A stretch of DNA of 64,000 nucleotides from an uncultured Candidatus Melainabacteria bacterium (GTDB taxonomy: Bacteria; Cyanobacteriota; Vampirovibrionia; Gastranaerophilales; Gastranaerophilaceae): contig CATLFB010000005.1 of the NCBI GenBank assembly GCA_949927415.1, positions 62,001 through 126,000 of the forward strand. Direction: 5' to 3'. The translations under genes and the position numbers were made by a program. Positions 28,574 through 53,782 of this stretch are shown here, one piece after another (the stretch's first letter is position 1; every line of letters starts with the position of its first letter). The notes under the pieces were generated by a model. It was not told the origin of the DNA, made no database searches, and worked only from the letters and a program-made list of their open reading frames with translations.

Positions 28574-28668
28574 ATATGATACATTTAATATTGACCAAAC
28601 CATATATAAAATCACAAAATTTTTTAAGAAATAATAATTATATTTAATGCGTAAATGAGGTGTTATTG

Positions 28669-28998
28669 ATGAAAATTTTTCCAATACTTTTATCAAATCC
28701 ATATAAACAATCTTTTGGGGAAAAAGATAGCAGAGCCGATTTAAAAAGGCAAGTAAAACAGATTATGCGAGAGAATTTTGCAGACATGCAGAGTTCAATA
28801 ACTGAGAATGCAAGAAAACAAATTAATAATGAATTTACGGATAAATTTGAAAAAGAAATCAAAAAAAGTCAAAACCTTCCTATCCGGCAAGATACAAAAC
28901 TAATTTTAAACGAATTAAAAACGGCTTATCGTAATGCAGCATTACAGTGGGATGTTGATGCTATTGACCGATATTTAAATGACAAAGGACTTCAATAA
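28669..28998 (+). CDS. Small hypothetical protein with QSFG leader
   Basis: A 109-residue protein beginning MKIFPILLSNPYKQSFGEKD, a clear example of the recurring leader. The rest is charged helix (RADLKRQVKQIMRENFADM and later LNELKTAYRNAALQWDVDAIDRYL, in segments), perhaps a coiled coil. I chose ATG 28669 because GAGGTG lies 7-8 bases upstream; the ATG at 28660 has none. The end overlaps the upstream boundary of the HEAT-like gene. Function unknown. Confidence 0.6.
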   Translation: MKIFPILLSNPYKQSFGEKDSRADLKRQVKQIMRENFADMQSSITENARKQINNEFTDKFEKEIKKSQNLPIRQDTKLILNELKTAYRNAALQWDVDAIDRYLNDKGLQ

Positions 28999-28999
28999 A

Positions 29000-30823: not shown

Positions 30824-30838
30824 AAAGGAGTAAACATT

Positions 30839-32160: not shown

Positions 32161-34590
32161 ATGTCCATTGACGACGCTAAGGAAAATTTTGACAAGATTT
32201 TTAATGATAAAGAATTGTTACAAACCATAGTAACGGAATCCGATACCAGGTTGAAATTAATTGATGATATAATAGTAAAAGTTTTAGATTGGAATAAAAA
32301 TCAAATTTTTACGGAAGAACATACTCAAGACGGCGGATATGTCGACTATTTGATGAAAGTAAACTCAAGAAACTGCTTTATTATTGAAGCTAAGAAAACA
32401 TCAAATGAACTTTGGGATTTATGCGATAAAGCTCTTAATACATATAATATATCCGGTCCGGCACTTAAAAAAGCATTAAAAGCAATCGAACAGGCGAGAA
32501 ACTATGCTATCAATAAAAGTGTTGGCAATTCTGTTGTAACAAATGGCGTTACTTGGATTGGTTTTCTAGGAGTAAGAACTGACGGAATAGAATGGCCTAA
32601 TGGCAAAGCTATTGTTTTTCCTAATCTTGAGGCAATAGAAAAGAATTTTGAAAAATTTTACGAATTGTTCTCTAAAGATGGTATATTATCAGAAAATCTG
32701 AGGACTAAAATACGTGATGCAGAAGCCGGTAAAGGCGGAATTCCTCCAAAAGTGTTGAAGTTACCTTATCCTAAAAATTCAGTACTTGTGCCCAAATCGT
32801 CTTTGGCTCGAGATATAGAAAGTGTTTTTAACAAATTCTTTGACAAAATTACCGATGAAGATGATGGTGAAATGCTTGAAGAATGTTTTGTTGAATCGAA
32901 AGAAAGTAAATTTGCCGACGCTACTTTAAAATCAATTTCAGAAAATTTAATAGCTGATATTGATAAAATAGATACAAAAACAAATCAACTTTCAAAAGAA
33001 ATTGAAGAGACTATTTTAACAAAACATGGCAGAACCGTATTAATTATTGGTAATAAAGGTTCAGGGAAGACGACTTATATTAAAAGATTTTTCAATATAG
33101 TTTTAGACCCTGTGCTTAAGAAAAAGTGTCTGATTTTGAATGTTGATATCGGAGTCAGTCCCGGGAAATTAAATTTTACAGAATGGATTACTCTAAGATT
33201 AATTGAACAAATACACAAGCAATTGTTTGGTAGAAATCGTGGAGAACCGACTTTTAATGATTTAAAAGGAATTTTTAATAGTGATTATCATAGATTTAAA
33301 ACGGGAACTTTTCCTAATTTATATGAAATGGATAGAGAGGCTTTTGATGTAAAATTTGGTGAATTTTTGGAAAAAGAAAGAGAAAACAAGTTTGAATATC
33401 TGGTTAAACTTCTTCAAAATGCTGTATCATCCAGAGGACGTGTTCCTTGTATAATTTTTGATAATCTTGACCATCATGAAAAATCGATTCAGGATGAAGT
33501 TTTTCAATATGCTCAGGCTATACGAGATAAAGTTTTAAGTTTTACTCTTTGTCCAATAACAGATAAAACAATTTGGGTTCATTCAAAATCCGGTCCTATG
33601 CAAAGTTTTGTGACAACCGTATTATATCTTCCGTCTCCACCTACAAAAGAAATAATCCAAAGCCGGTTAAAATATATGAAAAATAAAATAAGAAAAATAG
33701 AAGCCGGAGTGAGCGGAAACCGTGAGGATAGCAAGTATTTCTTAAAATATGGTATAAAACTCAATATCAAAGAATTAAATAAATTTGTCGGTCATATTCA
33801 GGAGACATTTATAAATACTGATTTCACTGCAAAAATTATCGGTAAACTTACAAACTATTCTGTACGAAAATGCTTGGTATTGTCTCGTGCAATTATGACT
33901 TCTCCGGTTATAACACCGGATGATTTGTTTAATAGTAATTTTTCAGAAAAGTCAACAATAAGTCTTAAAAATATTGAAAAGGCAATAATCCGAGATAAAT
34001 GTAATATTTTTGATCAACAAAGTAACAATTATATTTTGAACTTATTTACTTCAAATCCGGAAAATTATACTACACCGTTGTTAAAATTAAGGGTATTATC
34101 CTTTTTGAAATATAAAACTTCTCTTTTAAAACATACTTCTAATGAGGTATTTATAAGTATTGATGATATTTATAATTTTTTCTACAGTTTAGGTATAAAC
34201 GAAACCTGCGTAAAACAATGTCTTCAAGAATTTTTGGAATACGGTCTTATTGGTTGTCAAGATGCCAGCGTATCTGATATTAATTATGCTGAAAAAATTT
34301 GTTTAAATCCGTGTGGAATTCAACATTTAAACCTTGCGACACATTCAAATGTTTATTTGTTTAATATGGCTCTGCGAACACCTATTTTAGAAAATGACTA
34401 TTTTGATGAAATTGAACAATTGACTAATATTGATTTTTGGAAGTACCCAAAAGAAGTTATCTCAACATTTATCCGCTATTGTATTGCCGAAGATAAAAAA
34501 TACATTCAACTTAATGAAAATGAAGAATACGAACATCAGCGGAAACTCAATTCTTTATTGGATAATTTTATTGTAAAAAGTTATAATTGA
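32161..34590 (+). CDS. PD-(D/E)XK nuclease fused to a P-loop NTPase, candidate defence protein
   Basis: An 809-residue protein. The N-terminal 130 residues look like the HsdR-N/PD-(D/E)XK nuclease fold: TRLKLIDDIIVKVLDW, then D62 and FIIEAKK with E76 and K78. A P-loop NTPase follows, with IIGNKGSGKTT (about 296-305) as Walker A and CIIFDNLDH (about 430-438) as Walker B. The C-terminal part is helical and resembles winged-helix segments of STAND/KAP ATPases. Nuclease plus NTPase in one chain, on an AT-rich island beside TIR and ABC-3C genes, suggests an anti-phage effector switched on by NTP-dependent sensing (inference). AAAGGAG precedes the ATG. I cannot name a known system. Confidence 0.65.
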   Translation: MSIDDAKENFDKIFNDKELLQTIVTESDTRLKLIDDIIVKVLDWNKNQIFTEEHTQDGGYVDYLMKVNSRNCFIIEAKKTSNELWDLCDKALNTYNISGPALKKALKAIEQARNYAINKSVGNSVVTNGVTWIGFLGVRTDGIEWPNGKAIVFPNLEAIEKNFEKFYELFSKDGILSENLRTKIRDAEAGKGGIPPKVLKLPYPKNSVLVPKSSLARDIESVFNKFFDKITDEDDGEMLEECFVESKESKFADATLKSISENLIADIDKIDTKTNQLSKEIEETILTKHGRTVLIIGNKGSGKTTYIKRFFNIVLDPVLKKKCLILNVDIGVSPGKLNFTEWITLRLIEQIHKQLFGRNRGEPTFNDLKGIFNSDYHRFKTGTFPNLYEMDREAFDVKFGEFLEKERENKFEYLVKLLQNAVSSRGRVPCIIFDNLDHHEKSIQDEVFQYAQAIRDKVLSFTLCPITDKTIWVHSKSGPMQSFVTTVLYLPSPPTKEIIQSRLKYMKNKIRKIEAGVSGNREDSKYFLKYGIKLNIKELNKFVGHIQETFINTDFTAKIIGKLTNYSVRKCLVLSRAIMTSPVITPDDLFNSNFSEKSTISLKNIEKAIIRDKCNIFDQQSNNYILNLFTSNPENYTTPLLKLRVLSFLKYKTSLLKHTSNEVFISIDDIYNFFYSLGINETCVKQCLQEFLEYGLIGCQDASVSDINYAEKICLNPCGIQHLNLATHSNVYLFNMALRTPILENDYFDEIEQLTNIDFWKYPKEVISTFIRYCIAEDKKYIQLNENEEYEHQRKLNSLLDNFIVKSYN

Positions 34591-34878: not shown

Positions 34879-35784
34879 TTAAAATGGTATTTTTAGCAAC
34901 TCATTAATTTTTTGTTGTGTCTTGGCATCAATATTTGGTTCGTTGTTTTTTAAATGTTCAATAGAGTAGTTTAACATGTTACCAAAATTAAATAGTATAT
35001 TATTGCCAATATCTGTACCAAGCCATTTACACCTAATACTATAATTTATTACAAAATCAATTTTATCGTCAACATAGACTCCATTAAGATATTTAGAAAA
35101 GCTATCTTCTAATAAAATTTTAGAACCTTGTTGATTTATATATTCAACAATAGTAAATAATAGTACATTTTTATAAAACCAACCTAAATTTTCATTATGG
35201 TATAGTTCATATCGTTTTAATGCAACTTCATTACCTACAATACATAATGAAAATAAAACAGAATATTTATTATGCTTGTGGTAACTTATTGTATCTAATT
35301 CGATTATTATTGTTTTATTTACTGCATCTGTTTTCCACTCAATACTCCAATCTGTTTCAAAATCACCATTATCTAGATAAAATTGATTTTGTGAAAATTG
35401 AGCAGCAAGAGTATCCTCTATTTGCCTAAATCCAGATGTAAAATTGTTTCTAAAATCTGCATAAAATTTATCTCTTACAAATAACGGCAATATACAATCT
35501 TCAAGTAAAACGGGAAGGATTATTGCTCTTTTTTCTTCAACTTCACGCAGTAATCCTGCAGTCATCTCCCTTTTTACCCAATCAGATTCTATAGATTGTT
35601 TTGAAAAAACCATTAATAAGTAATCCGATTCAGATAATACTTCTTGTATTTTTTGAGTAATAGAATCTCCAACTTTCAATTCCCATCTATCTAACCAAAT
35701 TGGAATATTACTTTTTACTAAATTCATAGCTAATTTATCAACAAATTCTTTGTCTGAATGTGAATAACTAATGAAAACTCTCAT
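34879..35784 (-). CDS. TIR-domain protein
   Basis: A 301-residue protein. Residues 1-130 are a TIR domain: MRVFISYSHSDKEFVDKLA, IPIWLDRWELKVGDSI, then SDYLLMVFSKQSIESDW with the WxxxE motif W69 to E73 that carries the catalytic Glu of bacterial TIR NADases. The C-terminal 170 residues are of unknown type. It lies 30 bases after the ABC ATPase gene on the same strand with its own AAAGGAT site, so it may be a fourth gene of that operon and a second, NAD-depleting effector. NADase activity is inferred from the motif. Confidence 0.85.
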   Translation of the reverse strand: MRVFISYSHSDKEFVDKLAMNLVKSNIPIWLDRWELKVGDSITQKIQEVLSESDYLLMVFSKQSIESDWVKREMTAGLLREVEEKRAIILPVLLEDCILPLFVRDKFYADFRNNFTSGFRQIEDTLAAQFSQNQFYLDNGDFETDWSIEWKTDAVNKTIIIELDTISYHKHNKYSVLFSLCIVGNEVALKRYELYHNENLGWFYKNVLLFTIVEYINQQGSKILLEDSFSKYLNGVYVDDKIDFVINYSIRCKWLGTDIGNNILFNFGNMLNYSIEHLKNNEPNIDAKTQQKINELLKIPF

Positions 35785-35814: not shown

Positions 35815-37407
35815 CTATGCCCAAGATTTTCCAAATAACTGTTTGCCATCAATGCCTAATTTTAAAACTGCCGAATTATTAAGTAAGTTATATGTTTTTT
35901 TGCTATAAGAATTTTGTTTATCAAAAGCGATTATTACCTGCTTTCCACTTAATGAATATAATTCAACTATTTTTTCTATAGCTTCATCAGAAATCTGTTT
36001 TAAGATTAATGAATCATGTACAAGAAGTGGTAATTCGGTTAGGTTAAGAATAGCAAGGTCAAAAATTACAAGTCCTTTATATGCAATACCTGTACCAGTA
36101 TCATCTGGAGTAAAAAAATTATAGTTGTCTTTTGTAAAAGAAATTATTGGTGGTTTATGCACAGTTTTATATATTTCGTTGTTATAATCTTTCATTTTAT
36201 TATTGATTTCAGTTGCTATTAAAGCTAATTGTTTTTCTTTAATTTGTTTTAATTGTTCCTCTGTATCTTTTTTTGTTTTAAGTAGCGTATTCATTTTTGT
36301 ATAAGAATCGTTTTCTTGTTGTAAGCGTTCTTGAGATTTTAACAATTCAGTATGCTTAGATAACACCAATTTAGAAAGATTTGGGGTCTTTGTTAATGTT
36401 TGTAGTTCTCTTTCTAGTTCATCAATAATTCTTTCATAATCAGCTAATTCATCTTGAAGATTAGCTCTTTCATCATTTAACTCTGATTTAAATATTATAG
36501 AAATTTTTTTATGAAAGTTTTCAACCTCAGCTATATGTTCAAAGTTTGCATTAGGAAAGTATACTTTTAAATTATTCAATGAATCATTTGTTATAGAAAA
36601 CTTATATTCAGCATTTTCTGTTAAGGTATCATATCTAGCTTTTATCTTACCTTTTATTCGTCTTATTTTGGATAATTTATTTTTAATTTCTAAAGCTTTT
36701 TCTGAAATTGCTGAATCAAGGTCAAAAAATCCACAAGATAATTTTTCTATTTCTTTAGATATTTGCTCAATTTCTTTTAAATTTTTATTGAATGTTGATT
36801 TATTTATTTTAGCAATAAAATTTAACTTTTGAGCTTTTTTAAATGCTTTATAAGCCTCTTTTGCAGCCTTTGTTTGTTTTTCTATATTTTCTATCGGAAG
36901 ATAAAAATTGAATAATTTAATTAAGGCTAAAATTGATTCCTGTGCCTTTTCAGCAGGAAAACTTTGTAAAGGATGTTTTTCACTATAATTATCTTTTCCA
37001 TAAACACGTATATATCTTCCAACAGCATTTCTAAAGGTTAACTCAGGTAATTCTAATTGATAACATTCATTTAACCATCTACAATACATATCAATGTCTA
37101 TTTGTTCAAGTTTTTCATATTTATCATTACATTTCCATACTGTGTTTGTATCGGTATTATGTCTACAAAACTTATATAGATTGTTATTAAATTTAAAACA
37201 AAAGAAAATATCATGAGGACCTACATTTCTAATAATGTTATCTTGTTTAGCATAAGTGTTTCCACCAAAAACAAAATCTATTATTAAGAGGAATGTAGAT
37301 TTACCAATAGAATTATGAGCTTCATTAGTGCCCAAAACCACACTTAGACCTTCGTTGAATGTTACCTTTGACTGATAAAATTTTTCACAATAAATTTCAA
37401 GCAACAT
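35815..37407 (-). CDS. SMC/Rad50-like ATPase of an ABC three-component system (DUF2326 type)
   Basis: About 530 residues. The N-terminus MLLEIYCEKFYQSKVTF leads to the P-loop GTNEAHNSIGKST (about 26-38) and IDFVFGGN, the form seen in DUF2326/ABC-3C ATPases. A long antiparallel coiled coil occupies about 170-395, and the second ATPase half has YKGLVIFDLAIL and LPLLVHDS (Walker B region). I start at ATG 37407 (GGGGTG 7-8 bases upstream) rather than the GTG at 37422. The gene overlaps the MC6-like gene by 11 bases. In such systems the ATPase is thought to sense invader DNA or a replication state and license the effector. Confidence 0.82.
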   Translation of the reverse strand: MLLEIYCEKFYQSKVTFNEGLSVVLGTNEAHNSIGKSTFLLIIDFVFGGNTYAKQDNIIRNVGPHDIFFCFKFNNNLYKFCRHNTDTNTVWKCNDKYEKLEQIDIDMYCRWLNECYQLELPELTFRNAVGRYIRVYGKDNYSEKHPLQSFPAEKAQESILALIKLFNFYLPIENIEKQTKAAKEAYKAFKKAQKLNFIAKINKSTFNKNLKEIEQISKEIEKLSCGFFDLDSAISEKALEIKNKLSKIRRIKGKIKARYDTLTENAEYKFSITNDSLNNLKVYFPNANFEHIAEVENFHKKISIIFKSELNDERANLQDELADYERIIDELERELQTLTKTPNLSKLVLSKHTELLKSQERLQQENDSYTKMNTLLKTKKDTEEQLKQIKEKQLALIATEINNKMKDYNNEIYKTVHKPPIISFTKDNYNFFTPDDTGTGIAYKGLVIFDLAILNLTELPLLVHDSLILKQISDEAIEKIVELYSLSGKQVIIAFDKQNSYSKKTYNLLNNSAVLKLGIDGKQLFGKSWA

Positions 37408-37624
37408 AATGCAACACCCCACTTTCTTCTTTAAATTGAATTACTTTTAATGCATATAAACAATCCAGAGTATCAATATATTCTTCAATATCATCAAAAG
37501 ATTTTCTTGTAAGCAAATATAATGTTTTCAGTTGTATATCACCCTTTTTTATGATGCCTAATAAAAGAGGTAATTTGCTCAAAATACTTTCGTTATAAGA
37601 AATGGCTTTACTCGGTAATTTCAC
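37397..37624 (-). CDS. ABC three-component system middle component, MC6-like
   Basis: A 75-residue protein beginning VKLPSKAISYNESILSKLP and ending with a winged-helix-like LDCLYALKVIQFKEESGVL. Size, N-terminal K-L-P-x-K and the final small beta hairpin fit the MC6 group of middle components that bridge ATPase and effector. I chose the GTG at 37622-37624 because GAGGT lies 6 bases upstream; an earlier GTG at 37636 has none. It overlaps both neighbours, indicating tight translational coupling. Confidence 0.72.
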   Translation of the reverse strand: MKLPSKAISYNESILSKLPLLLGIIKKGDIQLKTLYLLTRKSFDDIEEYIDTLDCLYALKVIQFKEESGVLHYVA

Positions 37625-38417
37625 GAAATACCTCACAATTCTGTATAAAAAATGAAATTACAACTTCACATGCTTCCTTTGATATATCCAGAGTTTTGTT
37701 ATTTACCCAATTTACCATCTGGTTGAAAATTTCTTGCTTGTTGTTATTTTCATATTCCATTTTTATAAAACATGTCTTTATTTGACCACTTAAAACATCC
37801 AAGTGAAATCCGTTCTTCCCTTCTAAATTTTTAAACAAATCTAATATATATGGGTAATATTCAGTTACATACATAGAAACTTTTGTTTTTAGGAGCTTCT
37901 CATTATTTGAAAATTTATTTTTCAAGGATACAGGATTGTAATTTAATTGAATAAAATCTTCTTCTTTTAATTTTGATATCTTATCTACAACAATAGCTAT
38001 ATCATCTTCTAATGCTAAGTTTAATGTTGCATTATAAGTTTCTGTACGTTTTAAAAGCTTTTCTTTTATATTTACAAGTTTTAAGTATTCATCTTTACTT
38101 GTATGATAATCTTGGGTCTTGTGGCACTTAAGACATAAGGCAATTTTATTTTCAAAAGATTCTGAGTTTTCACCCAAACGTTTCAAATTTGAAAGTGTTT
38201 TGTACTGTTCCTGAGTGGGACGATTAGGATAAATATGAGCTATTTCGTATAATGCATTGTTCTTTTTTTGCTTATTATTTCTTAGATCTTCACCACACAA
38301 AGGACATATAAAATTAACCTCTCTCAAATATAGTTGTATTTCACTTTTTGATGGGTCTTTTCGTTTTTTTATATAGTTATCATTTAACAATAGCTTTTCA
38401 AATTCTTCCTTTTTCAA
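37608..38417 (-). CDS. HNH-nuclease effector of an ABC three-component system
   Basis: A 269-residue protein, first gene of the minus-strand defence operon. The N-terminal half is an HNH/zinc-ribbon nuclease: C38 and C41 (CPLC), YEIAHIYP with H61, FENKIALCLKCHK with N90, C95, C98 and H99. The C-terminal half ends KTLDISKEACEVVISFFIQNCEVF, matching the conserved C-terminal domain that ABC-3C effectors use to dock the other components. It probably cleaves DNA when released or activated. The assignment rests on domain pattern plus operon order, not on a search. Confidence 0.8.
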   Translation of the reverse strand: MKKEEFEKLLLNDNYIKKRKDPSKSEIQLYLREVNFICPLCGEDLRNNKQKKNNALYEIAHIYPNRPTQEQYKTLSNLKRLGENSESFENKIALCLKCHKTQDYHTSKDEYLKLVNIKEKLLKRTETYNATLNLALEDDIAIVVDKISKLKEEDFIQLNYNPVSLKNKFSNNEKLLKTKVSMYVTEYYPYILDLFKNLEGKNGFHLDVLSGQIKTCFIKMEYENNNKQEIFNQMVNWVNNKTLDISKEACEVVISFFIQNCEVFREITE

Positions 38418-41860: not shown

Positions 41861-41908
41861 AACCTAGAGACCTCTTCCTACAGCTCGTCTGTTATAGAAC
41901 TCTAGGTT
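41861..41908. terminator. Long-loop hairpin between convergent genes; terminator or origin
   Basis: AACCTAGAG (41861-41869) pairs perfectly with CTCTAGGTT (41900-41908) around a 30-base loop containing CTACAGCTCGTCTG. It overlaps the stop codon of the minus-strand HEPN gene. The large loop is unusual for a terminator and sits where a rolling-circle origin would be, next to the replication gene. Confidence 0.5.
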
Positions 41909-42591
41909 TTAGCTTTATATAGGTCTTTTGAAATTTTATTGTAAACATCTAAAAAGTTTGAAGTATCTTTTAATATAGAAATATCCTCTTGTGGTAAATA
42001 TGATAGAACTTCCATTATTTCATCATACTTATTTAAAAGAGATTTGCTTAATACAGGCTCATAATGAAAAATCCTGTTTCTGAGTTTTCTAATAGATGTC
42101 AGCTTTTTTGAGAGTATATTTATTTGCTGTGCAGAGCTTTTGCAATTTACAAAAACTCCTCTAAAACATTCTTTCTTGTGCCATATTTTGGTGCTATATC
42201 TTTTTGAACATAATCCAGTCCAAAATCCAAAATTAAGGTTTGCTATTACTTTGCCTATAGTAAAATTTTGTGGCTTACATTCCTTTAAGGTTTCATTGTA
42301 GGCTCTAATTAGTTTTGCATGCTCTTGTTCAAGTAAGATTTTCTGTTGTTTGATTTCATCCTCAAGCCATGTTTGAGAAATACACTTGCTTAATGTTGAA
42401 TTAATGGCATTACGTAAGGTTACTTCAAGTATTGACAATTCTGGATATAAAGACTGTGAAATCCTGATATTATTTTTATAGCGTTCTAAAACAACTTCTA
42501 TTGAGTCATCTTCACATTGAATAAATGACCTTAGTCTTTCAACACTTAAAGTGCTTGCATATTTTTTCAACTCTTTTTCATCAATAGCCAT
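41902..42591 (-). CDS. Abi-like HEPN-domain protein
   Basis: A 229-residue protein. LSILEVTLRNAINSTL and GKVIANLNFGFWTGL match Abi-family abortive-infection proteins. RNRIFHYEP at 171-179 supplies the HEPN RNase signature R-x4-H (R171, H176). HEPN proteins of this type cut RNA and stop growth of infected cells. It is oriented against the replication genes and looks like cargo of the element. No antitoxin partner (such as a nucleotidyltransferase) is adjacent. Confidence 0.75.
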   Translation of the reverse strand: MAIDEKELKKYASTLSVERLRSFIQCEDDSIEVVLERYKNNIRISQSLYPELSILEVTLRNAINSTLSKCISQTWLEDEIKQQKILLEQEHAKLIRAYNETLKECKPQNFTIGKVIANLNFGFWTGLCSKRYSTKIWHKKECFRGVFVNCKSSAQQINILSKKLTSIRKLRNRIFHYEPVLSKSLLNKYDEIMEVLSYLPQEDISILKDTSNFLDVYNKISKDLYKAKT

Positions 42592-42882: not shown

Positions 42883-43428
42883 ATGAAGAAGAAAGCCGAA
42901 CCAATTAAAAACAGGAGAGATATTGAGAAAATTGAACAGTATCTAAAATTACACAATAAACGAGATTATGTTATCTGGGTATTAGGCATGAATTCTGGTT
43001 TGCGGGTGTCTGATATAGTAGGGTTAAATGTTTCAGATGTTGTTGATAAAACCCATATTTCAATTATTGAAAAGAAAACAGGCAAGCCAAAAACTTTTTA
43101 TATCAATGATAAGTTAAAACGAGTGCTAAAAGAATACACAAAGGGTAGAAACCTTGACGAACCTCTATTTTTAGGTAAGCAAGGGAAACGACTTGACCGC
43201 TCGCAGGTCTATAGATTTATTGTAAAAGTTTGCAAAGAACATGATATAAAAGTACACGTATCGACACATACTCTCAGACGCAGCTTTGGTTACCACCATT
43301 ATCAAAAGTTTAAAGACCCGGTTGTGTTGCAAAAAATATTTAACCATTCCAGCCAAAGAATAACGCTTATGTATATCGGGGTTGAGCAAGATGAAATTGA
43401 TTTAAGTTACAAGAACTTTGAATTGTAA
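42883..43428 (+). CDS. Short tyrosine recombinase (Xer/integrase catalytic domain)
   Basis: A 181-residue tyrosine recombinase consisting almost only of the catalytic domain. Catalytic residues are all visible: R41 (SGLRVSD), a Lys in EKKTGKPK, H129 and R132 (THTLRRS), H155 (FNHSSQ) and the nucleophile Y164 (TLMYIG). The N-terminal SAM-like DNA-binding domain is nearly absent, as in small recombinases of compact elements. AAAGGAA precedes ATG. It probably integrates or resolves the small replicon-like element to its left. A strong terminator follows. Confidence 0.85.
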   Translation: MKKKAEPIKNRRDIEKIEQYLKLHNKRDYVIWVLGMNSGLRVSDIVGLNVSDVVDKTHISIIEKKTGKPKTFYINDKLKRVLKEYTKGRNLDEPLFLGKQGKRLDRSQVYRFIVKVCKEHDIKVHVSTHTLRRSFGYHHYQKFKDPVVLQKIFNHSSQRITLMYIGVEQDEIDLSYKNFEL

Positions 43429-43676: not shown

Positions 43677-44366
43677 ATGACAGAACAAACACCTTATGAA
43701 ATTGAAGAACAAAATATTAGATTTGATGTAGTTGAATTTGCTGAAAATCCAGAGCCTAGATGTCCTTGTATCCTGCTTTTGGATTGCTCAGGGTCAATGA
43801 ATGGTAAACCTATTCAAGAATTAAATAATGGTTTGCGAGCTTTTCAGCAACAGTTGAGCAGCGATGATTTAGCTTCAAAGCGAGTTGAAGTTACTGTTGT
43901 AAAATTTGATACAGATGTAGAAATTATAAACGAGTTTGAAACAGCAGAGAATTTTACACCAAAACCACTTGAAGCAAACGGTCTAACAAGTATGGGCAGA
44001 GCCATTGAAAGAGCAGTAAATCTACTTGAACAAAGAAAAGCAGTTTATAAAGCTAATGGTATTTCATATTATCGTCCATGGATATTTTTGCTGACTGACG
44101 GTGAACCTACAGACGATTATACAAATGCTATGGAAGCAGTTCATGAAGGTGAAAAAAATAAGCAATTTGCATTCTTTGCTGTAGGTATTCAAGGGGCAAA
44201 TATGGATATTTTAAGACAAATTTCTGTAAGACAGCCTTTGCCGTTACAGGGCTTGAATTTTACATCATTATTTCAATGGCTGTCAAATTCCATGTCCTCT
44301 GTTTCACGTTCTTCACTGGATGCAGAAATTGCATTAGAATCACCAAGCGGATGGGCTAAGATATAA
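43677..44366 (+). CDS. TerY-like vWA-domain protein
   Basis: A 229-residue von Willebrand A protein. The metal-ion-dependent adhesion site is complete: DCSGS at 36-40, the Thr in ANGLTSMG and the Asp in LLTDGEPTDD. This is the TerY pattern (cytosolic, no signal peptide), known from tellurite-resistance loci and TerY-P triads. I chose ATG 43677 because AAAGGA lies 7-8 bases upstream; the frame continues to 43539 without a ribosome site and across a terminator. Its stop overlaps the phosphatase start by one base. It probably binds the kinase/phosphatase pair or their target. Confidence 0.88.
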   Translation: MTEQTPYEIEEQNIRFDVVEFAENPEPRCPCILLLDCSGSMNGKPIQELNNGLRAFQQQLSSDDLASKRVEVTVVKFDTDVEIINEFETAENFTPKPLEANGLTSMGRAIERAVNLLEQRKAVYKANGISYYRPWIFLLTDGEPTDDYTNAMEAVHEGEKNKQFAFFAVGIQGANMDILRQISVRQPLPLQGLNFTSLFQWLSNSMSSVSRSSLDAEIALESPSGWAKI

Positions 44367-45148
44367 TGGGCTGGAAGTATTTTTATTCATCAGTAAAAGG
44401 GACATCTCATATTGCTTCAAACACTCCTAAACAGGATAATTGTAAAATTTGTGTGTTCAAAGATTATCTTATTGCTACTGTAGCAGACGGGGCAGGGAGT
44501 GCAAAGTATTCTGATTTGTCATCAAAGTTTATTTGTAAGTTGTTTATCAGAAAAACTAAACAATGGCTTACAAACAATAATCTTGAAGATTTAACAAGAG
44601 ATGTTATTGCAGAGTGGTTTACTTATTTTCAAAAAGTAATAAATAGGGCTGTAGTAATATACAAATTAGAATCTTCAAGAGAATTTGCAACAACATTATT
44701 GTTTTCAGTATTGAGTAAAAATTTTAATGTTTTTGTTCAAATTGGAGATGGTATTATTGCCATTGGCGATAAAAATGATATGGAATGTGTATTTTTACCG
44801 CAGAATGGCGAATTTATCAACACAACTCACTTTGCAACAGAAACCAGTGCCATAAATATTTTTATGTATAAAACAACATCTGAGCCCGTTAATCGTATTG
44901 CAATGCACTCTGATGGTATAGAACAAATTGCACTGGATTTTAAAGCCAAAAAACCTTTTATTCCTTTCTTTGTTCCATTTTTCTCTGCTTTAGAAAAACT
45001 GGAAGATATAGGATATTCTGAAATATTATCTAAACAGTTAGAAATATTTTTACATTCAGATAGAGTAAATAAGAAAACCGATGATGATAAAACTTTGTTT
45101 TTAGCCTCTGTAACTACAGAAAATGTGGAGTCTGATGATGAACAGTAA
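44366..45148 (+). CDS. PP2C-family phosphatase of a TerY-P module
   Basis: A 260-residue PP2C phosphatase. KGTSHIASNTPKQDNC and TVADGAGSAKYSDLSS contain the first metal-binding residues (the ADGAG form typical of PP2C_2 proteins in TerY-P loci), and later IAMHSDGIEQIAL and KKTDDDKTLFLA supply the remaining acidic ligands. It should reverse the action of the Ser/Thr kinase encoded three genes on. Coupled to the vWA gene by a TAATG overlap and to the TPR gene by an 11-base overlap. Confidence 0.88.
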   Translation: MGWKYFYSSVKGTSHIASNTPKQDNCKICVFKDYLIATVADGAGSAKYSDLSSKFICKLFIRKTKQWLTNNNLEDLTRDVIAEWFTYFQKVINRAVVIYKLESSREFATTLLFSVLSKNFNVFVQIGDGIIAIGDKNDMECVFLPQNGEFINTTHFATETSAINIFMYKTTSEPVNRIAMHSDGIEQIALDFKAKKPFIPFFVPFFSALEKLEDIGYSEILSKQLEIFLHSDRVNKKTDDDKTLFLASVTTENVESDDEQ

Positions 45149-46313
45149 TAATTATTTAAACAGGGCTATAAATTTGTATGAACAAAAACTTTATTCTGAT
45201 GCTATTAGAGAGAGTTCTAAGGCTATAGAATTAGATTCATATAACGACGGAGCATATACCGTAAGAGGGATGTCCTATTATTCAACTGAACAAATAGAAA
45301 AGGCTGTTGAAGATTTAACAACAGCAATACAGTTAAATCCGTATAATTCTGTTGCTTATTGTTACAGGGGAATGTGTTTTTCAATATGCAAGTTTGCAGA
45401 AGCTAACTCTGTAATTGCATTTGACAAACCTTCTTCTTTCAGTTTAAAAGGGTTTAAATTGACTAATGAAGTTAACCAGAATCTCTTACAAAGTTTAGAT
45501 GATGAAAATACAGCTATTCAACTTGATAATGAGAATTTACAGGCTTATTTAGCAAGAGCAGAAACTTTATTCTGGCTTGAAAATTACGAAAATTCTTTAA
45601 TTGATTTAAACAAAGTCATAAAAGAGTGTCCTAATGAAGGTGTTTTTGAATTAAGGGCTGAAATTTATTATTTATTTAAAATTTACGATTGTTGTATTCA
45701 AGATATAAATGAAGTTATAAAATTAAATCCTAATAATTGTGTTGCTTTTGATGTTCGTGGTCGTGCGTATTATATGAAAAAAGAATATGACAGAGCTATT
45801 GTAGATTTAACTAAGGCTATTCAATTAAATCCGTCCAATGATATGGCATATTATTATCGTGGGTGCTGTTATTACTTTAAAGATGAAAATAATAAAGCCA
45901 CAGAGGATTTTGGTAAGTGTGTGAAAAATAATCCGTATAATTACAGTGCATACGATTATAGAGCCAGAGGTTACTGGTTTATGAAAAATTTTCAGCAAGC
46001 TGTACAAGATGAAACTATGTCAATATCTTTAAACCCTAATCACGGTAATGCGTATGACTTTAGAGGACGGGCTTATTATTTTTTGAAAGATTATCAAAGT
46101 GCTGTTAATGATACAAGTAAGGCAATTAATTTAGGAATACATAATTACAGTGTATTTGATTGCAGAGGGCGGTCATATTTTTATTTAAAACAATATGATA
46201 ATGCAATTAATGATTTTAAACAAGCATTACAAATTAAACCTGATAATCTTGAATTACAAGAATTTTTGAAAAAAGTTTATGCTGAAATACAATCTCAAAG
46301 GCTGGTACAATAA
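45138..46313 (+). CDS. TPR-repeat protein
   Basis: About 391 residues of tandem tetratricopeptide repeats, roughly ten, each with the W-L-G-Y-A-F-A-P type pattern (for example YYSTEQIEKAVEDLTTAIQLNP read in segments; later KEYDRAIVDLTKAIQLNP and KDYQSAVNDTSKAINLG). TPR arrays bind peptides and organise complexes. I start at ATG 45138, which has GGAG 8 bases upstream; the frame opens at 45123. It sits inside the vWA-PP2C-kinase unit, which is unusual, since the basic triad lacks a separate TPR gene. I infer a scaffold or sensor for phosphorylated partners. Confidence 0.85.
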   Translation: MNSNNYLNRAINLYEQKLYSDAIRESSKAIELDSYNDGAYTVRGMSYYSTEQIEKAVEDLTTAIQLNPYNSVAYCYRGMCFSICKFAEANSVIAFDKPSSFSLKGFKLTNEVNQNLLQSLDDENTAIQLDNENLQAYLARAETLFWLENYENSLIDLNKVIKECPNEGVFELRAEIYYLFKIYDCCIQDINEVIKLNPNNCVAFDVRGRAYYMKKEYDRAIVDLTKAIQLNPSNDMAYYYRGCCYYFKDENNKATEDFGKCVKNNPYNYSAYDYRARGYWFMKNFQQAVQDETMSISLNPNHGNAYDFRGRAYYFLKDYQSAVNDTSKAINLGIHNYSVFDCRGRSYFYLKQYDNAINDFKQALQIKPDNLELQEFLKKVYAEIQSQRLVQ

Positions 46314-47957
46314 ATGGTAAAAACTGGCAATAATACTTACACTCAAACATATACTGATGATTTAGGTAATCCCGTTGTATTAGGCAAAGAACTTGCAAGA
46401 GGCGGTGAAGGCAGAGTTTGTCTTGTTCAAGGTAATTCAAATGTTGTTGCAAAGTTGTATTTAGATAAAGCCCTTAATAAACACGATAAAGCAGGAAAAA
46501 TTAAAGCAATGTGTGATTTGTATGATATGGATATTGCGAAATTTTCAGCTTTGCCACAAAGAGTTATATTTGATGCTCGCGGAAAAGTTGTTGGCTTTAT
46601 AATGGAAAAAATCACAGACTTTAAAGAAATTCATAACCTTTATGGAATATCTACTAAAAGAAAATTGTTTGACTATGCTGACTGGGGTTTTATGGTACAC
46701 TCAGCTAAAAACCTTGCTATTGCTGTTAATAAATTGCATAGTAAAAATATTGTAATTGGTGATATAAATCAGGGAAATATTTTAGTTAATAATCAAGCAA
46801 TGATAAAACTTATTGATTGTGATTCTTATCAGGTTAAATATAATGGGAAATTTTATTTATGCGAAGTTGGAGTTCCTGAATATACTTCACCAGAACTTCA
46901 AGGACAGTCTTTTAACGGTATTCAAAGAACAAAAAATCATGATTGCTTTGGATTAGCTGTTATGATTTTTAAAATCTTGATGTTTGGCAGACATCCGTAT
47001 AGCGGAGTTGGGGCTCCGCCTGAAATAGAGAATGCTATTAAGCAGGGCTGTTATTGTTATGGTAATTATTCAAAAGGTACAACACCTATTTACTCGCAAT
47101 TATTTTCAGAGGTTCTCAGTGATGAGGTAAAAGAATTATTTGACCGTGCTTTTTCTAAAAATAAAAACATCATACGTCCGACAGCAGAGGAATGGATAAA
47201 TACGTTAGAATGCCTTGAACAAAATTTGATACAGTGTTCAAAGAATCATAAACATTATAACAACGGGAATTCTTGTATCTGGTGTAAGTTATCAAAGTTT
47301 GGATTTAATCCTTTTAGTAATTCTACTGTTAACAATAAACCTCAAAACACACCGAATTATCAACAAACACCATACACATACAATCCGCCAAAACAGCAAA
47401 GTACCCCTAATACTAATTATAATAACTCATACCAGCCATCGCAGCCAAAACAAACTCAACCTGCAACTAATAAAATAAATCTCAAACCTGTATTTATTAT
47501 CTTAGCTGTAATCTTTTTTGTAGGTATGCTGGGAGCATTCAATGATTCTAAGGATGATTCAACGTATACACAGCCAGTTACAAATCAAGAAACGAAGAAC
47601 GATACTACACAAGAAAATATCTCTGAACAAAAATCCTATACTGAAGCTGAAAAGCATATAAATAGAAACGCTTATTCTGATAATGAAACAAATAAAAATA
47701 ATGTAACTAATGAAAAACAAGATAACAATACTTCATCAAATAATTCAATGGATGAGTTTAACGAGATTAATAGTATACATACATCACATTATAGCAATAG
47801 TACCTCAGATTATGGGGAATTTGGTTCCTTTGTGAATGACAAAACCCCTCAAAGAACTAAAGATATTGTGAAATATGCAACAAAATCACCTACACAAAAA
47901 CAAAAATACACGCCAAAAAGCAATATAGAAAAATCGCAGGAGTGGTTTTTTGAATAA
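46314..47957 (+). CDS. Membrane-anchored Ser/Thr protein kinase of a TerY-P module
   Basis: A 547-residue protein. The kinase domain (about 20-310) has the glycine loop ARGGEGRV (28-35), ATP-binding K47 in VAKLY, catalytic loop GDINQGN (D150, N155) and IDCDSY (D168) for DFG, then TSPELQG as APE. A Cys/His cluster follows (CSKNHKHY, then CIWC), as in TerY-P kinases. Next come a Gln/Asn/Pro-rich linker and one membrane helix (VFIILAVIFFVGMLGAF, near 395-412), with a polar, Asn/Ser/Thr-rich tail presumably outside. The start follows the TPR stop directly. It should phosphorylate a cellular target under phage or stress signals. Confidence 0.87.
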   Translation: MVKTGNNTYTQTYTDDLGNPVVLGKELARGGEGRVCLVQGNSNVVAKLYLDKALNKHDKAGKIKAMCDLYDMDIAKFSALPQRVIFDARGKVVGFIMEKITDFKEIHNLYGISTKRKLFDYADWGFMVHSAKNLAIAVNKLHSKNIVIGDINQGNILVNNQAMIKLIDCDSYQVKYNGKFYLCEVGVPEYTSPELQGQSFNGIQRTKNHDCFGLAVMIFKILMFGRHPYSGVGAPPEIENAIKQGCYCYGNYSKGTTPIYSQLFSEVLSDEVKELFDRAFSKNKNIIRPTAEEWINTLECLEQNLIQCSKNHKHYNNGNSCIWCKLSKFGFNPFSNSTVNNKPQNTPNYQQTPYTYNPPKQQSTPNTNYNNSYQPSQPKQTQPATNKINLKPVFIILAVIFFVGMLGAFNDSKDDSTYTQPVTNQETKNDTTQENISEQKSYTEAEKHINRNAYSDNETNKNNVTNEKQDNNTSSNNSMDEFNEINSIHTSHYSNSTSDYGEFGSFVNDKTPQRTKDIVKYATKSPTQKQKYTPKSNIEKSQEWFFE

Positions 47958-47966
47958 GAGGACTTT

Positions 47967-48848
47967 ATGATAAAGAAAAATTTATTATATATTCTAATAA
48001 TCTTTTTATTTTCAGTAAATCAAGTTATGGCTGAAAACTGGATACCAGTTCAGGCTGATAATGGGAAAACCGCTGAATTTGATATTGATAGCTTAGTTAT
48101 AACCGATAATATTGCGAGATACAGGGTAAAACAAAAAATTCTTGGAGAAGATAAAATTTTCAATATGGTAACTAATTTTAATAACAAAACAAGTGCTATA
48201 TGTGATATAGAAATAATTGACTATACTGGAAAAAGAAAGTTTGAAAGTTACTCAAGTAAACTTAAATATTTACCAATAAGAAAAGGAAGTTTAAATCAAG
48301 TCTTATATCAATTTTTAATATATTTAAAAGAAAGTAATATTAATGACGTTTCGTCAAGTAGGGAATTAAAGAGATACATTAATAAATTGCAGAAGAAAAT
48401 ACAAGGAAGTTGGCATCCGAATAACCTATATGAATTAGGATATTTTCAACCTGATGAAAAAGCTATAGCATACGTTACATTATTTGTACACAAAAATGGC
48501 AACATTCATTACGTAAGCTATCAAAACAATACCAATACAGAGTATGATGAGTTTAACGAAAAATTAAAAGCTGAAATAAATAAGTTTTACACGAAACATA
48601 AAACATTAGAAGCACTACCTGAAAATTTTAAAGGTGAAGGAGTTGTTATTGTCGTTAAATATGAATATTTTATACAGGACAAATTACAAAAAGATTTTTC
48701 TTCTAATTGGAACAACGTTGGGATTGGGTATATTGAATGTAATAAAAAATTTTTCAGAGCTTATCCTGTCTTAAGGTTATTTATTCTGCCTTTTAAGTTT
48801 ATTTATGGAATTTTGGAAGAATCTTATGAAGATGCATTTGGAAGGTAA
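47967..48848 (+). CDS. Exported protein with TonB-C-like domain
   Basis: A 293-residue protein with a clear signal peptide (LLYILIIFLFSVNQVMA, cleavage before EN). A beta-rich region follows (residues 23-110, WIPVQADNGKTAEFDIDSL), then a segment like the TonB/TolA C-terminal fold (KKIQGSWHPNNLYELGY, then AIAYVTLFVHKNGNIHYVSY), similar in outline to the protein at 63125. It lies 9 bases after the kinase with GAGGA as ribosome site. An exported partner in a TerY-P operon suggests sensing at the envelope, together with the kinase's external tail (inference). Confidence 0.65.
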   Translation: MIKKNLLYILIIFLFSVNQVMAENWIPVQADNGKTAEFDIDSLVITDNIARYRVKQKILGEDKIFNMVTNFNNKTSAICDIEIIDYTGKRKFESYSSKLKYLPIRKGSLNQVLYQFLIYLKESNINDVSSSRELKRYINKLQKKIQGSWHPNNLYELGYFQPDEKAIAYVTLFVHKNGNIHYVSYQNNTNTEYDEFNEKLKAEINKFYTKHKTLEALPENFKGEGVVIVVKYEYFIQDKLQKDFSSNWNNVGIGYIECNKKFFRAYPVLRLFILPFKFIYGILEESYEDAFGR

Positions 48849-48854
48849 AAAGGA

Positions 48855-49718
48855 ATGGAATTAATATTTGGAATTCTTTTTATAGCTGTAATCATTACCT
48901 GGTGTGTTTATAACCGTAATAAAGCAGAAGAACGCAAAAAGGCAGTAGAATTACAAAATCAAAAAATTGATTTTGTTAAATCTAATAGTCAATGTTTGTA
49001 TGCTATAAAAAAGCTTAATCATAACTATAATTTTAAAGAATTTGATGCCCATCCTCGTTATCGGAGAAATTGTAATAGCAAAACACAACTTGATAATTTT
49101 GACATCTACAATCATATGCTTTTAACGATTGAACATAGTCCTAATTATTTTACAGGAATAGTAAAAGCTGTTAAATATAACAGACAAAAATATTCTCAGT
49201 ATGAACAACAGTTCAATTTAACTATAAATAAAATTGTAAGCGGATGTAATTATTGCAAGCTTACGGCAAATTCTATTATTGAAGCTGATGAATTTAAATC
49301 AATAGAAGAAGTCGAATGCAAAAAACTTAAAAAGGATGCTATAAGGGATTTTACCATTGAACTTATTGTATGCTACAGAAGTCCTAGAGGTAGAAATAGT
49401 TATAAGCGAACATATAAATTTAATTGTCATGATATAGAGCGTTATTTAAATGATTATAATCAGATGCAGCAAAATAAGCAATCCGCAGTTTATCAACGAC
49501 AGCTTATGACACCGAAAATGAGATACAAAATTCTTAAACGAGATGGTTTTAAATGTGTAATATGCGGTAGAAGTAGAAAAGATGGGGCAAAACTCCATGT
49601 TGACCATATAAAACCAGTTTCCAAAGGTGGGAAAACAGAAGAATCAAATCTTAGAACACTTTGTGATATGTGCAACTTAGGTAAAAGCGATGCTTACGAC
49701 CCTTATGGTTTAAACTAA
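48855..49718 (+). CDS. Membrane-anchored HNH endonuclease
   Basis: A 287-residue protein. An N-terminal membrane helix (LIFGILFIAVIITWCVY, residues 3-19) precedes a middle region rich in charged helix. The C-terminal 70 residues are a standard HNH nuclease: FKCVICGRS, KLHVDHIKPVSKGG, SNLRTLCDMCNLGKS, with both zinc CxxC pairs and the H-N-H residues intact. It is the last gene of the operon (7 bases after the previous stop, AAAAGGA site). A nuclease held at the membrane would meet incoming DNA first; I infer that it is the effector of this TerY-P variant. Confidence 0.82.
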   Translation: MELIFGILFIAVIITWCVYNRNKAEERKKAVELQNQKIDFVKSNSQCLYAIKKLNHNYNFKEFDAHPRYRRNCNSKTQLDNFDIYNHMLLTIEHSPNYFTGIVKAVKYNRQKYSQYEQQFNLTINKIVSGCNYCKLTANSIIEADEFKSIEEVECKKLKKDAIRDFTIELIVCYRSPRGRNSYKRTYKFNCHDIERYLNDYNQMQQNKQSAVYQRQLMTPKMRYKILKRDGFKCVICGRSRKDGAKLHVDHIKPVSKGGKTEESNLRTLCDMCNLGKSDAYDPYGLN

Positions 49719-50122: not shown

Positions 50123-50716
50123 TTAACATTTTATGGACTCTGCATACTTATAAAATGTACTTCTTGCAATATCGCACATACCCATAACATCTTTAACTGT
50201 AATTAAACCTTGCGTATAAAGTTCATAACCTCTTAAAAATTCCTTTGGTATATCTGAAATCGGTCTTCCAAACTTTACTCCTCTTGATTTAGCGGATGCT
50301 ATACCTTCTGCTTGACGTGTTTTAATGTTATCCCGTTCCCTCTCTGCAACATAGCCTAGCAATTTAAGCACAATATCTGTAATTAAGCGACCTGTTAAAC
50401 CATTTTGATTATCTCTAGTATTGAGTATCGGCATATCTAGAACCTGAATATCCACACCTATATTTACAAGCGATTCCCATTCCTTACAGATTTGAGTGTA
50501 ATTCCTGCCAAACCTGTCAATACTTTTAACAATAACAAGGTCGCCTGCCCTTAACTGTGCCTTCATAGCCTGATATTTTTCCCTGCTGACAAAGTTTTTA
50601 CCTGAAGCTTTTTCAATAATAATTTCGTCAACTTTTAATCCTTGAAGCGAGTCAAGCTGTCTATTTTCGTTTTGCTCACGGCTTGAAACTCTGATATATG
50701 CAAATATTTTACTCAT
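50123..50716 (-). CDS. Serine recombinase, resolvase/invertase family
   Basis: A 197-residue small serine recombinase. IFAYIRVSSREQ carries the catalytic Ser (S11), KSIDRFGRNY the active-site Arg residues, and ERERDNIKTRQAEGIASAKSRGVKFGRP is the dimer helix, followed by a C-terminal helix-turn-helix (ITVDKVMGMCDIARSTFYKY-like). It should resolve cointegrates or invert DNA. Typical of plasmids and transposons. It lies about 1.5 kb from a second, larger serine recombinase of the same element. Confidence 0.92.
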   Translation of the reverse strand: MSKIFAYIRVSSREQNENRQLDSLQGLKVDEIIIEKASGKNFVSREKYQAMKAQLRAGDLVIVKSIDRFGRNYTQICKEWESLVNIGVDIQVLDMPILNTRDNQNGLTGRLITDIVLKLLGYVAERERDNIKTRQAEGIASAKSRGVKFGRPISDIPKEFLRGYELYTQGLITVKDVMGMCDIARSTFYKYAESIKC

Positions 50717-52256: not shown

Positions 52257-53708
52257 ATGGAACAAAGAATAAAAGCAGTTATATATGCACGTGTAAGTTC
52301 AGAAGAACAAAAGAAAGAAGGGTTCTCTATTGAAGCCCAATTGGATTTACTGCACGAATATGCAAGCAAGAATCATATTGAAGTGGTAAAAGAGTTTACA
52401 GAAGCTGAAACAGCAAAACAAACAGGCAGGCATAAATTTGCAGAGATGATAAAATTCCTTAAAAAGAGCAAGGATGTTAATGCCATTCTTGTAGAAAAAA
52501 CAGACCGTTTATATAGAAATTTTAGGGATTACGTTGATGTAGATGATAGCAAGTTTGAAATTCATCTGGTAAAAGAAAATGAAATAATAACCCCTGATTC
52601 CCCTTCGCATGCAAAGTTGGTTCACGGGTTAAAGGTTTTATTGGCTAAAAACTTTATTGATAACCTTAGAGAAGAAACTCAAAAAGGACGATTAAAGAAA
52701 GCAAGTAACGGTTTATTTATAGGACAAGTACCTTATGGCTATAAAAAACTTGATAAAAATACAACTGTTATTGATGAAGAAAAAGCACCATTTGTAAGAC
52801 GTGCTTTTGAATTATACGCTTCGGGGCTTTCATTAGAAAAAGTAAGATGGCAATTAAGAGATGAAGGATTTGTTTATCAGGCATCAAACAAAGTTATTTC
52901 ACATGGACAATTAGGTAAACTCCTAAAAAATGTCAGCTATATTGGAGGTTTGTATTTCAGAGGCACAGTTTATTCAGGTAAACATGAGCCAATTATATCA
53001 GATGAATTATTTGAAAAAGCACAAATTTCAGCCCAAAAGGATAATAAACCTTTATATAGAGATGACCACAATTTTACTTTTGCAGGTTTAATAACTTGTG
53101 CAAAATGCGGATGTGCTATTACTGCTGAAATAAAGAAGGGTAAATATATATACTATCACTGTACTGGTGGCAAGGGTAAATGTGAACAGAAGAAAATTTA
53201 CATCAATGAACTAGATTTAATGCCACAATTTGATGAAGCTGTAAAAGCCGTGAGCCTTGCACAAAGACACATTGATTACATTAAACAAGGTTTGAAAGAA
53301 AGTTTAGCAGATAAAAAAGAATTTTCCGAACAAATGCGTAGCAATCTTGAAGCAGAAGCTAAAAGAATACGGCACAGGATAGATAAAATTACTAATGAAT
53401 ATTATGATGATTTGATTGATGCTAAGTTTTACAATGATAAAAGACTTCAATGGAACAAAGATTTAGATGAAGTCATGATAAAACTTGAAGCTTTACACCA
53501 TGCCGAACAAAAATACTATGAAGAAGGGGTTAGAATTATCGAAACGCTGAAAAACGCTTATATCTTATATAAACAACAATCCCCTATCGAACAAAGAAAA
53601 TTATTAAATTACTTACTATCGAACTGCAAGTTAGAAGGCAAAAAGGTAAGCTATGACTATAACTTACCTTTCTCATATTTCGTAAATTTTGACTCTTGTC
53701 GCAAAAAA

Positions 53709-53735
<27 letters not shown>
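52257..53735 (+). CDS. Large serine recombinase (site-specific integrase)
   Basis: A 492-residue large serine integrase. The N-terminal catalytic domain has VIYARVSSEEQ (S14) and EKTDRLYRNFRDY; the recombinase domain has GQVPYGYKK and YASGLSLEKVRWQLRDEGF; a zinc ribbon follows (CAKCGCAIT, then YYHCTGG..KCEQ) and a long coiled coil (320-440). The last codons, KKYPGCDSNA, are read from the 3' half of tRNA-Arg on the other strand, so the element probably sits in that tRNA gene and the attachment junction lies in the recombinase's 3' end. Length is at the short end for the family. Confidence 0.92.

Positions 53736-53782
<47 letters not shown>

Follow-up and report, generated by a model that had tools for sequence, protein, structure and literature searches.

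We show that a six-gene operon in a 64,000-nucleotide stretch of contig CATLFB010000005.1, from an uncultured Candidatus Melainabacteria bacterium of the family Gastranaerophilaceae, joins a von Willebrand factor A (vWA), PP2C phosphatase and kinase triad to a tetratricopeptide repeat (TPR) protein, an exported protein (TONB) and a putative membrane-tethered HNH nuclease. The whole 64,000-nucleotide stretch is termed the window, and positions refer to it unless a locus (L number) is named. On balance, we lean towards the view that the operon (43677-49718) is a defence (conflict) system borne by a mobile element and built of two modules, a phospho-switch and an envelope sensor-effector.

The first-pass annotation of the window had described six genes on the same strand that overlap or are closely spaced, and this was confirmed by the open reading frames, their junctions and their Pfam matches. 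All six frames are on the + strand, none has an internal stop, and they are tightly packed, with an overlap of 1 base, an overlap of 14 bases and gaps of 0, 9 and 6 bases in order. The first gene (43677..44366) encodes a TerY/YegL-like vWA protein of 229 aa (VWA, 8e-13); its start was picked by the N-terminus conserved among relatives, and the residues of its metal ion-dependent adhesion site (MIDAS; DxSxS, T and D) were read by eye. A PphC-like PP2C phosphatase of 260 aa (44366..45148; PP2C_2, 4e-43) and a TPR protein of 392 aa that is syntenic in relatives (45135..46313; TPR_2, 1.5e-39) follow. The fourth gene (46314..47957) encodes a YegI-like Ser/Thr kinase of 547 aa (Pkinase, 5e-15). Its kinase domain is followed by a conserved Cys/His cluster, from which the protein continues into a membrane helix (residues 390-408, 47481..47537, by a hydropathy script) and a variable tail (47538..47954). 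Residues D150, C308, C321, W323 and C324 were invariant in 11/11 aligned kinases, and Pfam named no zinc ribbon or OB-fold in the window kinase. Because a single helix follows the kinase domain, the tail is predicted to lie outside the cell. With tblastn the kinase matched the YegI family at 2e-53 to 2e-55 in the four Escherichia coli records listed; together with the Pfam matches of vWA, PP2C and kinase, this agrees with the earlier assignment of the triad to TerY-P and puts it with the YegL-PphC-YegI kind.

The fifth gene (47967..48848) encodes TONB, a protein of 293 aa with a signal peptide (by eye), a beta domain and a TonB_2-like C-terminal part. A TonB-C-like fold had been attributed to it on first reading; its own TonB_2 match was weak (0.0017, below the Pfam cut-off). 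TonB_2 was matched by 4/7 aligned TONB family members, the window included (best 2.4e-7), and comparison of the TONB profile with the TonB_2 proteins of the L182 locus and of the loci with the second gene order (type B, see below) gave E 4.5e-6 (profile probability 86.5%). In an AlphaFold2 model (mean pLDDT 54.5) the second half of TONB was arranged as helix-strand-strand-helix-strand. The first part resembled Haemophilus Protein E in Foldseek (probability up to 1.00, best E 0.019), a likeness that is taken as a lead only, because no Foldseek match reached 0.001. The sixth gene (48855..49718) encodes the HNH protein, a predicted nuclease of 287 aa with an N-terminal membrane helix (residues 1-19, hydropathy script), a middle domain of its own (~36-212) and a C-terminal HNH domain (49554..49691; 5.3e-13). 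Residues C234, C237, D250, H251, N265, C270, C273 and N274 were invariant in 11/11 aligned members. The AlphaFold2 model of this protein had a mean pLDDT of 34.7 (four sequences), and its middle domain received no fold assignment.

The distribution of the operon was analyzed in 383 genomes (G numbers) of the window's family, with the HNH middle domain and the kinase as queries. Twelve genomes were counted with the middle domain and 13 with the kinase; 9 had both, or 10 when G361 is included, where the end of the kinase lies at a contig edge within the same operon. Co-occurrence was significant by a Fisher test that treats the genomes as independent, though they are related (p 3e-13, or 4e-15 with G361). 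Altogether the middle-domain query matched 19/383 genomes. Excluded from the count were six with weak matches of E 1e-4 to 6e-4 (G299, G437, G258, G474, G419 and G255) and G023 (28% over query residues 4-173, E 2e-11), whose match ends short of the HNH domain. A first search with the HNH protein had matched 149/382 genomes, mostly through the HNH domain alone. From it, eight other full-length matches were examined together with G363, G251 and G023, and the window's operon was not seen in the contexts of the latter three (L043-L045). L045 (8339-9370) encodes a 343-residue protein that is 28.7% identical to the N-terminal and middle parts of the HNH protein and has another C-terminus. Of 329 genomes sampled from the phylum, 9 matched the middle domain, and each of these belongs to the window's family.

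Thirteen HNH loci were compared: the window, L006, L007 (the G323 copy), L008 (the G464 copy), L010, L036, L038, L039, L040, L041, L042, L180 and L182. In 10/13 the cluster includes a kinase gene, of which the L036 contig shows the end only. L180 is a 3.2-kb contig, and the kinase of the same genome is on another contig; in the stretches fetched for L038 and L182 no kinase gene was found. A TONB or TonB_2-type protein adjoins the HNH gene or lies in its cluster in all 13 loci (in L180 it was recognised by BLAST only, E 2e-11, with no Pfam match), and a TPR gene is present in 11/11 clusters that are not cut short. The HNH gene of G425 in L180 (1060-1923) is broken by an in-frame stop, which points to decay of this copy or to a fault in the assembly. 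The first-pass view that the genes added to the triad belong with it is supported, the HNH protein (12 genomes) and the kinase (13 genomes) being found together in 9.

The same parts occur in two gene orders. Type A is vWA-PP2C-TPR-KIN-TONB-HNH (window, L006, L007, L008, where the contig end truncates the vWA gene, L039, and L036 as far as its contig reaches), and type B is TPR-vWA-PP2C-HNH-KIN-TonB_2 (L010, L040, L041 and L042), with small intergenic gaps in both. Type A and type B kinases form separate supported groups in the kinase tree (99/98 and 100/100), and the type B kinases carry two to four helices (hydropathy script). The kinase of G415, which lacks an HNH match, is placed less firmly as sister of type A (89/91); the vWA tree was poorly resolved. 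The finding of the same parts in two orders and two settings argues against mere hitch-hiking.

Modules were exchanged between loci. L039 and L038 have 2,429 bp in common at 97.0% identity, covering the membrane and tail part of the kinase, TONB and HNH. The breakpoint is inside the kinase gene, just before the membrane helix, with no match farther upstream, and the remaining matches between the two loci are element genes at ~87%. Because the exchanged block starts inside the kinase gene, the tail half of the kinase travels with TONB-HNH. The inner head in L038 is not a kinase by Pfam. An L182 protein begins with a J-domain (DnaJ, 5.2e-8), ends in a TonB domain and is 33% identical over 392 columns to the membrane/TonB half of the L042 kinase (E 7e-45); the kinase, vWA and PP2C triad was not found in the 19 kb fetched for L182. 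Judged from these comparisons, the membrane/TonB_2/HNH half looks like a portable sensor-effector module, found also without the kinase (G278 and G456), rather than an appendage of TerY-P. The earlier proposal that the extra genes make a membrane-located variant is partly supported, and we restate it as a portable module of putative envelope sensor and nuclease, driven in most cases here by a TerY-P/YegI-type phospho-switch.

The nuclease itself can be replaced. G415 and G418 carry the triad without an HNH match, and directly upstream lies an Mrr_cat protein of 228 residues with two membrane helices (4.7e-23 for the G415 copy). These genomes are counted as one case, not two, because their nuclease copies are 97% identical. 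L038 holds the same kind of membrane Mrr protein (Mrr_cat, 3.6e-22).

Three further arrangements were recorded at these loci. Positions 7921-17619 of L038 may form a defence cluster not described before; they encode a radical-SAM protein, an AAA ATPase (PADLOC IetA-like, 1.2e-25), three TPR proteins, the membrane Mrr protein, a TonB_2 protein, TONB and HNH. L182 (8004-11998) encodes a TPR protein, HNH, the J-domain/membrane/TonB protein and a second TonB_2 protein. Directly after the HNH gene, L006 (6712-6993), L008 (6446-6727) and L036 (6638-6919) encode 93-residue membrane proteins that are 35-47% identical to the membrane part of the L038 Mrr protein and too short for a nuclease domain.

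In two comparisons the kinase tail had diverged much further than most of the kinase domain. Between the window and L005, the operon of G425, the vWA, PP2C and TPR proteins are 98, 87 and 90% identical. The kinases are 90-100% identical over residues 1-350 and 20-26% over residues 401-500, and reach 51% at the end; the next gene in L005 encodes a different exported protein (TonB_2 2.7e-4, just below the cut-off). L006 and L007 gave a similar picture: their kinases are 60% identical in the first block, 76-98% over residues 51-400, then 46% and 64%, and 14-32% over residues 501-700, with their other genes 81.5-91.9% identical. L006/L008 showed a like tail pattern and are not independent of L006/L007. 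Over 14 gene pairs the ratio of nonsynonymous to synonymous divergence (dN/dS) was 0.012 to 0.203, as expected under purifying selection (the synonymous divergence, dS, of TONB between the window and L036 was 1.60, near saturation), and for the window/L005 kinase tail it was 0.42, at a dS of 1.42, also near saturation. The genes are therefore under constraint, the kinase tail least.

The surroundings of the operon point to a mobile carrier. GC content in the window is 0.25-0.34 from ~26 to 54 kb compared with ~0.36-0.44 outside, and the low-GC stretch ends with a large serine recombinase gene (52257..53735, +) that overlaps a tRNA-Arg gene (53709..53782, -), the presumed end of the presumed carrier element. 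No 14-mer of bases 53651-53850 recurs elsewhere in the window as a far-end direct repeat. A tyrosine recombinase gene (42883..43428, +) lies directly upstream of the operon, as it does in L039 and L005, and a small serine recombinase gene (50123..50716, -) lies downstream, with relatives in L008, L036, L039, L180, L038 and L009. When seven other type A or G425 contigs were compared (L005, L006, L007, L008, L036, L039 and L180), the tyrosine recombinase had matches in 3/7, that in L006 at 43% and on the opposite flank, and the small serine recombinase had matches in 4/7, as well as in L038 and L009. L007, whose contig holds little besides the operon, matched neither, and the four type B loci matched none of five element genes.

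PADLOC and Pfam defence matches were found near the operon on the low-GC stretch. A HEPN/Abi_2-like protein (41902-42591, -) matched PADLOC PD-T4-5 (6.2e-15), and a TIR-like protein (34879-35784, -) matched PDC-S66 (1.3e-22) and bSEFIR (1.3e-14). In an ABC-three-component pair (35815-38417, -), separate from the six-gene operon, a DUF2326 protein (2.2e-19) is joined by one that carries CTD11 (2.2e-35) and a weak HNH_2 match. The kinase of the operon itself matches PADLOC kinase models (PD-T4-6, 2.2e-11). At the type B locus L042, Cas1 is ~1.9 kb away, and genes for Csm6-CARF and Cas6 adjoin the locus. These neighbours make a defence role likelier, without proving it. Farther upstream in the window, positions 32161-34590 (+) encode 809 residues with weak HSDR_N-like and AAA/STAND-like matches and no PADLOC match. 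Large low-GC genes at 26090-31990 (+) share a short N-terminal F-x-G/FTG-like motif, read by eye, which by eye is present also in other genes of these genomes.

TerY-P, an operon of vWA, PP2C and Ser/Thr kinase genes associated with restriction and DNA-processing genes according to the cited passages (PMC11090510, PMC4978471, PMC7699616, PMC10889362), is reported in parts of these papers to be anti-phage (PMC7699616, PMC11090510, PMC10889362). The window operon shares with it the vWA protein with MIDAS, the PP2C phosphatase and the Ser/Thr kinase. The TerY-P kinase is fused at its C-terminus to a zinc ribbon or OB-fold; in the window kinase the Cys/His cluster, for which Pfam names neither, leads on to the membrane helix and the tail. 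Its partners in the window are TPR and TonB_2-type proteins and an HNH protein that has a middle domain of its own and is in most cases tethered to the membrane. Neither HNH nor TonB occurs in the main text of PMC11090510. In CoCoNuT types II and III-A, TerY-P is coupled to a nuclease system (PMC11090510, cited passage); in contrast, Pfam, used with no prediction of coiled coils, gave no match to a McrB-type GTPase, a HEPN protein or a coiled-coil nuclease protein among the six window proteins. Membrane-bound kinases were known before; new locally is that the triad is coupled to a membrane nuclease and to TonB_2 proteins. Searches of the literature on TerY-P, YegI, Gastranaerophilales phage defence and Zorya, with subscription papers mostly outside their reach, did not recover the six-gene set.

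The E. coli record that was examined holds yegL-pphC-yegI, the three families in the order of the window, and its YegI has hydrophobic helices as in the window kinase (hydropathy script). LHH nucleases are of an HNH-like type. A Helicobacter TerY-P cluster is said in a passage of PMC4978471 to include an LHH nuclease, so that an HNH-type nuclease nearby is not new in itself, and nucleases in TerY-P clusters are already known from parts of PMC11090510 and PMC4978471. YegI is described in the cited part of PMC13232886 as membrane-bound and dephosphorylated by PphC, so a membrane kinase is opposed by PphC there too, and no condition promoting yegI-pphC expression is known from it. Unlike the window operon, the E. 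coli set seen comprises three genes only, with no HNH or Mrr match within 11 kb, and its YegI has a weak HHH_5 match near the end and no TonB_2 match.

ZorE of Zorya type II is an HNH protein. The cited part of PMC11890865 proposes that an envelope-coupled inner-membrane complex recruits the ZorE nickase, and describes modular effectors. The likeness of the window operon, a system known from genes alone, is one of logic and not of membership. Zorya has the ZorA/ZorB motor, to which none of the six window proteins gave a match (Pfam, PADLOC); the window operon has kinase and phosphatase signalling, and TonB_2 where Zorya has the peptidoglycan-binding domain of ZorB.

Outside the family, 17 loci were analyzed, from 8 of 13 kinase-matching genomes of the f8 set (class family), with G164, G173, G179, G187 and G207 left out, and from 9 of 57 plasmid records. 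The vWA, PP2C and kinase genes were present at 9/9 plasmid loci; at the eight f8 loci kinase and PP2C were present in 8/8 and vWA in 7/8, one of these with scattered order. Among viral contigs, 197 relatives were confirmed with the HNH profile, and in the best 80 listed the match is confined to residues 174-287; the kinase gave two matches, and no relatives of the exported protein were found. No place covering 80% of the HNH protein was found in the phage and plasmid collections. In two rhizobial YegI-type triads (L197 6931-7596 and L199 6897-7556), which are preceded by His-Xaa-Ser radical-SAM genes, an SH3-domain gene directly follows the kinase gene and is perhaps an equivalent envelope part.

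We propose the following mechanism. The first module would be a YegI-like membrane kinase restrained by PP2C, with vWA and TPR as scaffold or adaptor. The second would consist of the kinase tail and the exported or membrane TonB_2-type proteins on the predicted outer side, and of the usually tethered HNH nuclease inside. An entering phage or other element, as the putative ligand, would disturb or bind the outer parts and the kinase would be freed from PP2C control. The signal would then pass inwards, phosphorylation via vWA/TPR activating or recruiting the HNH nuclease at the entry site. There it would cut the DNA that comes in or, in an abortive response, that of the host.

Several observations weigh against this proposal. 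(i) No HNH or Mrr query match was found at the 17 outside-family loci (E 1e-3), so that nuclease coupling is a local variant. The first-pass annotation had held that its view would suffer if related loci kept only the triad; they do so outside the family, and inside it 9/13 kinase genomes carry HNH, with neither nuclease matched by query in two of the 13 (G019 and G406). (ii) The membrane helices claimed earlier are present in the kinase and in the window HNH protein, but the latter helix is not universal: 9/12 HNH proteins have it, the window's included, and the close relatives L006-L008 do not. (iii) The genome of the window has 8 TonB_2 matches besides that of the operon, so the domain is not special to it; Pfam found no TonB_2 match in the window kinase tail, and just 3/11 aligned kinases have one in the tail, two of them weak. 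(iv) Rapid divergence of a low-complexity tail is also compatible with weak constraint; moreover, the L007 and L008 kinases differ in the linker only, and the L010 and L041 tails are similar. (v) The left border of the element was not found within the window. (vi) The PADLOC matches of PP2C, TPR and HNH are weak or generic, and vWA and the exported protein have none.

A further reading, which we regard as possible and hold tentatively, is receptor-kinase immunity, in which variable, often TonB_2-type outer domains recognise phage entry and are combined with swappable inner heads and output nucleases. The heads would be the kinase with PP2C/vWA, the J-domain or the head found in the radical-SAM/AAA cluster of G278, and the outputs the membrane HNH or Mrr proteins. 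TolA is exploited by phages, and the outer domains may imitate such phage-exploited TonB/TolA-like parts and diversify under attack.

It is rather unlikely that the operon is an accessory envelope-stress operon like E. coli yegL-pphC-yegI, with a nuclease for DNA uptake, repair or element maintenance. E. coli and other plasmid records do hold the same triad with no match to a nuclease, the exported protein is like ordinary envelope domains, the window genome has eight other TonB_2 matches, and the membrane-bound, PphC-dephosphorylated YegI, with no known expression-promoting condition (PMC13232886, cited part), would suit such a role. The patchy distribution, with the kinase in 13/383 family genomes, speaks against it, as do the recombinase genes around type A copies, the defence neighbours, the replacement of the nuclease, the variable kinase tail and the stop-broken HNH copy in G425. 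That the carrier elements turn the same mechanism against rival elements (conjugation, incoming plasmids) and not phages is improbable: type A copies adjoin recombinase genes of related elements, but the four type B loci match 0/5 element genes and one adjoins CRISPR genes. Least probable is a mere gathering of independent genes in an island, with TONB-HNH a separate two-gene unit travelling with the triad, for although TONB-HNH (L038) and TPR-HNH-TonB_2 (L182) occur without the triad, and triads without HNH, the type B HNH gene sits between PP2C and kinase, the L038/L039 block starts inside the kinase gene and gaps are small in both gene orders.

For stand-alone TerY-P, both trigger and effector are unsettled in the cited passages. 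Input and output alike have candidates in the window's family, namely a changing tail with a like kinase and two alternative membrane nucleases, and with such natural constructs at both ends of the pathway the two are directly testable. If the two-module defence system that we favour is real, envelope-sensing defence such as Zorya would gain an example wired through a kinase.

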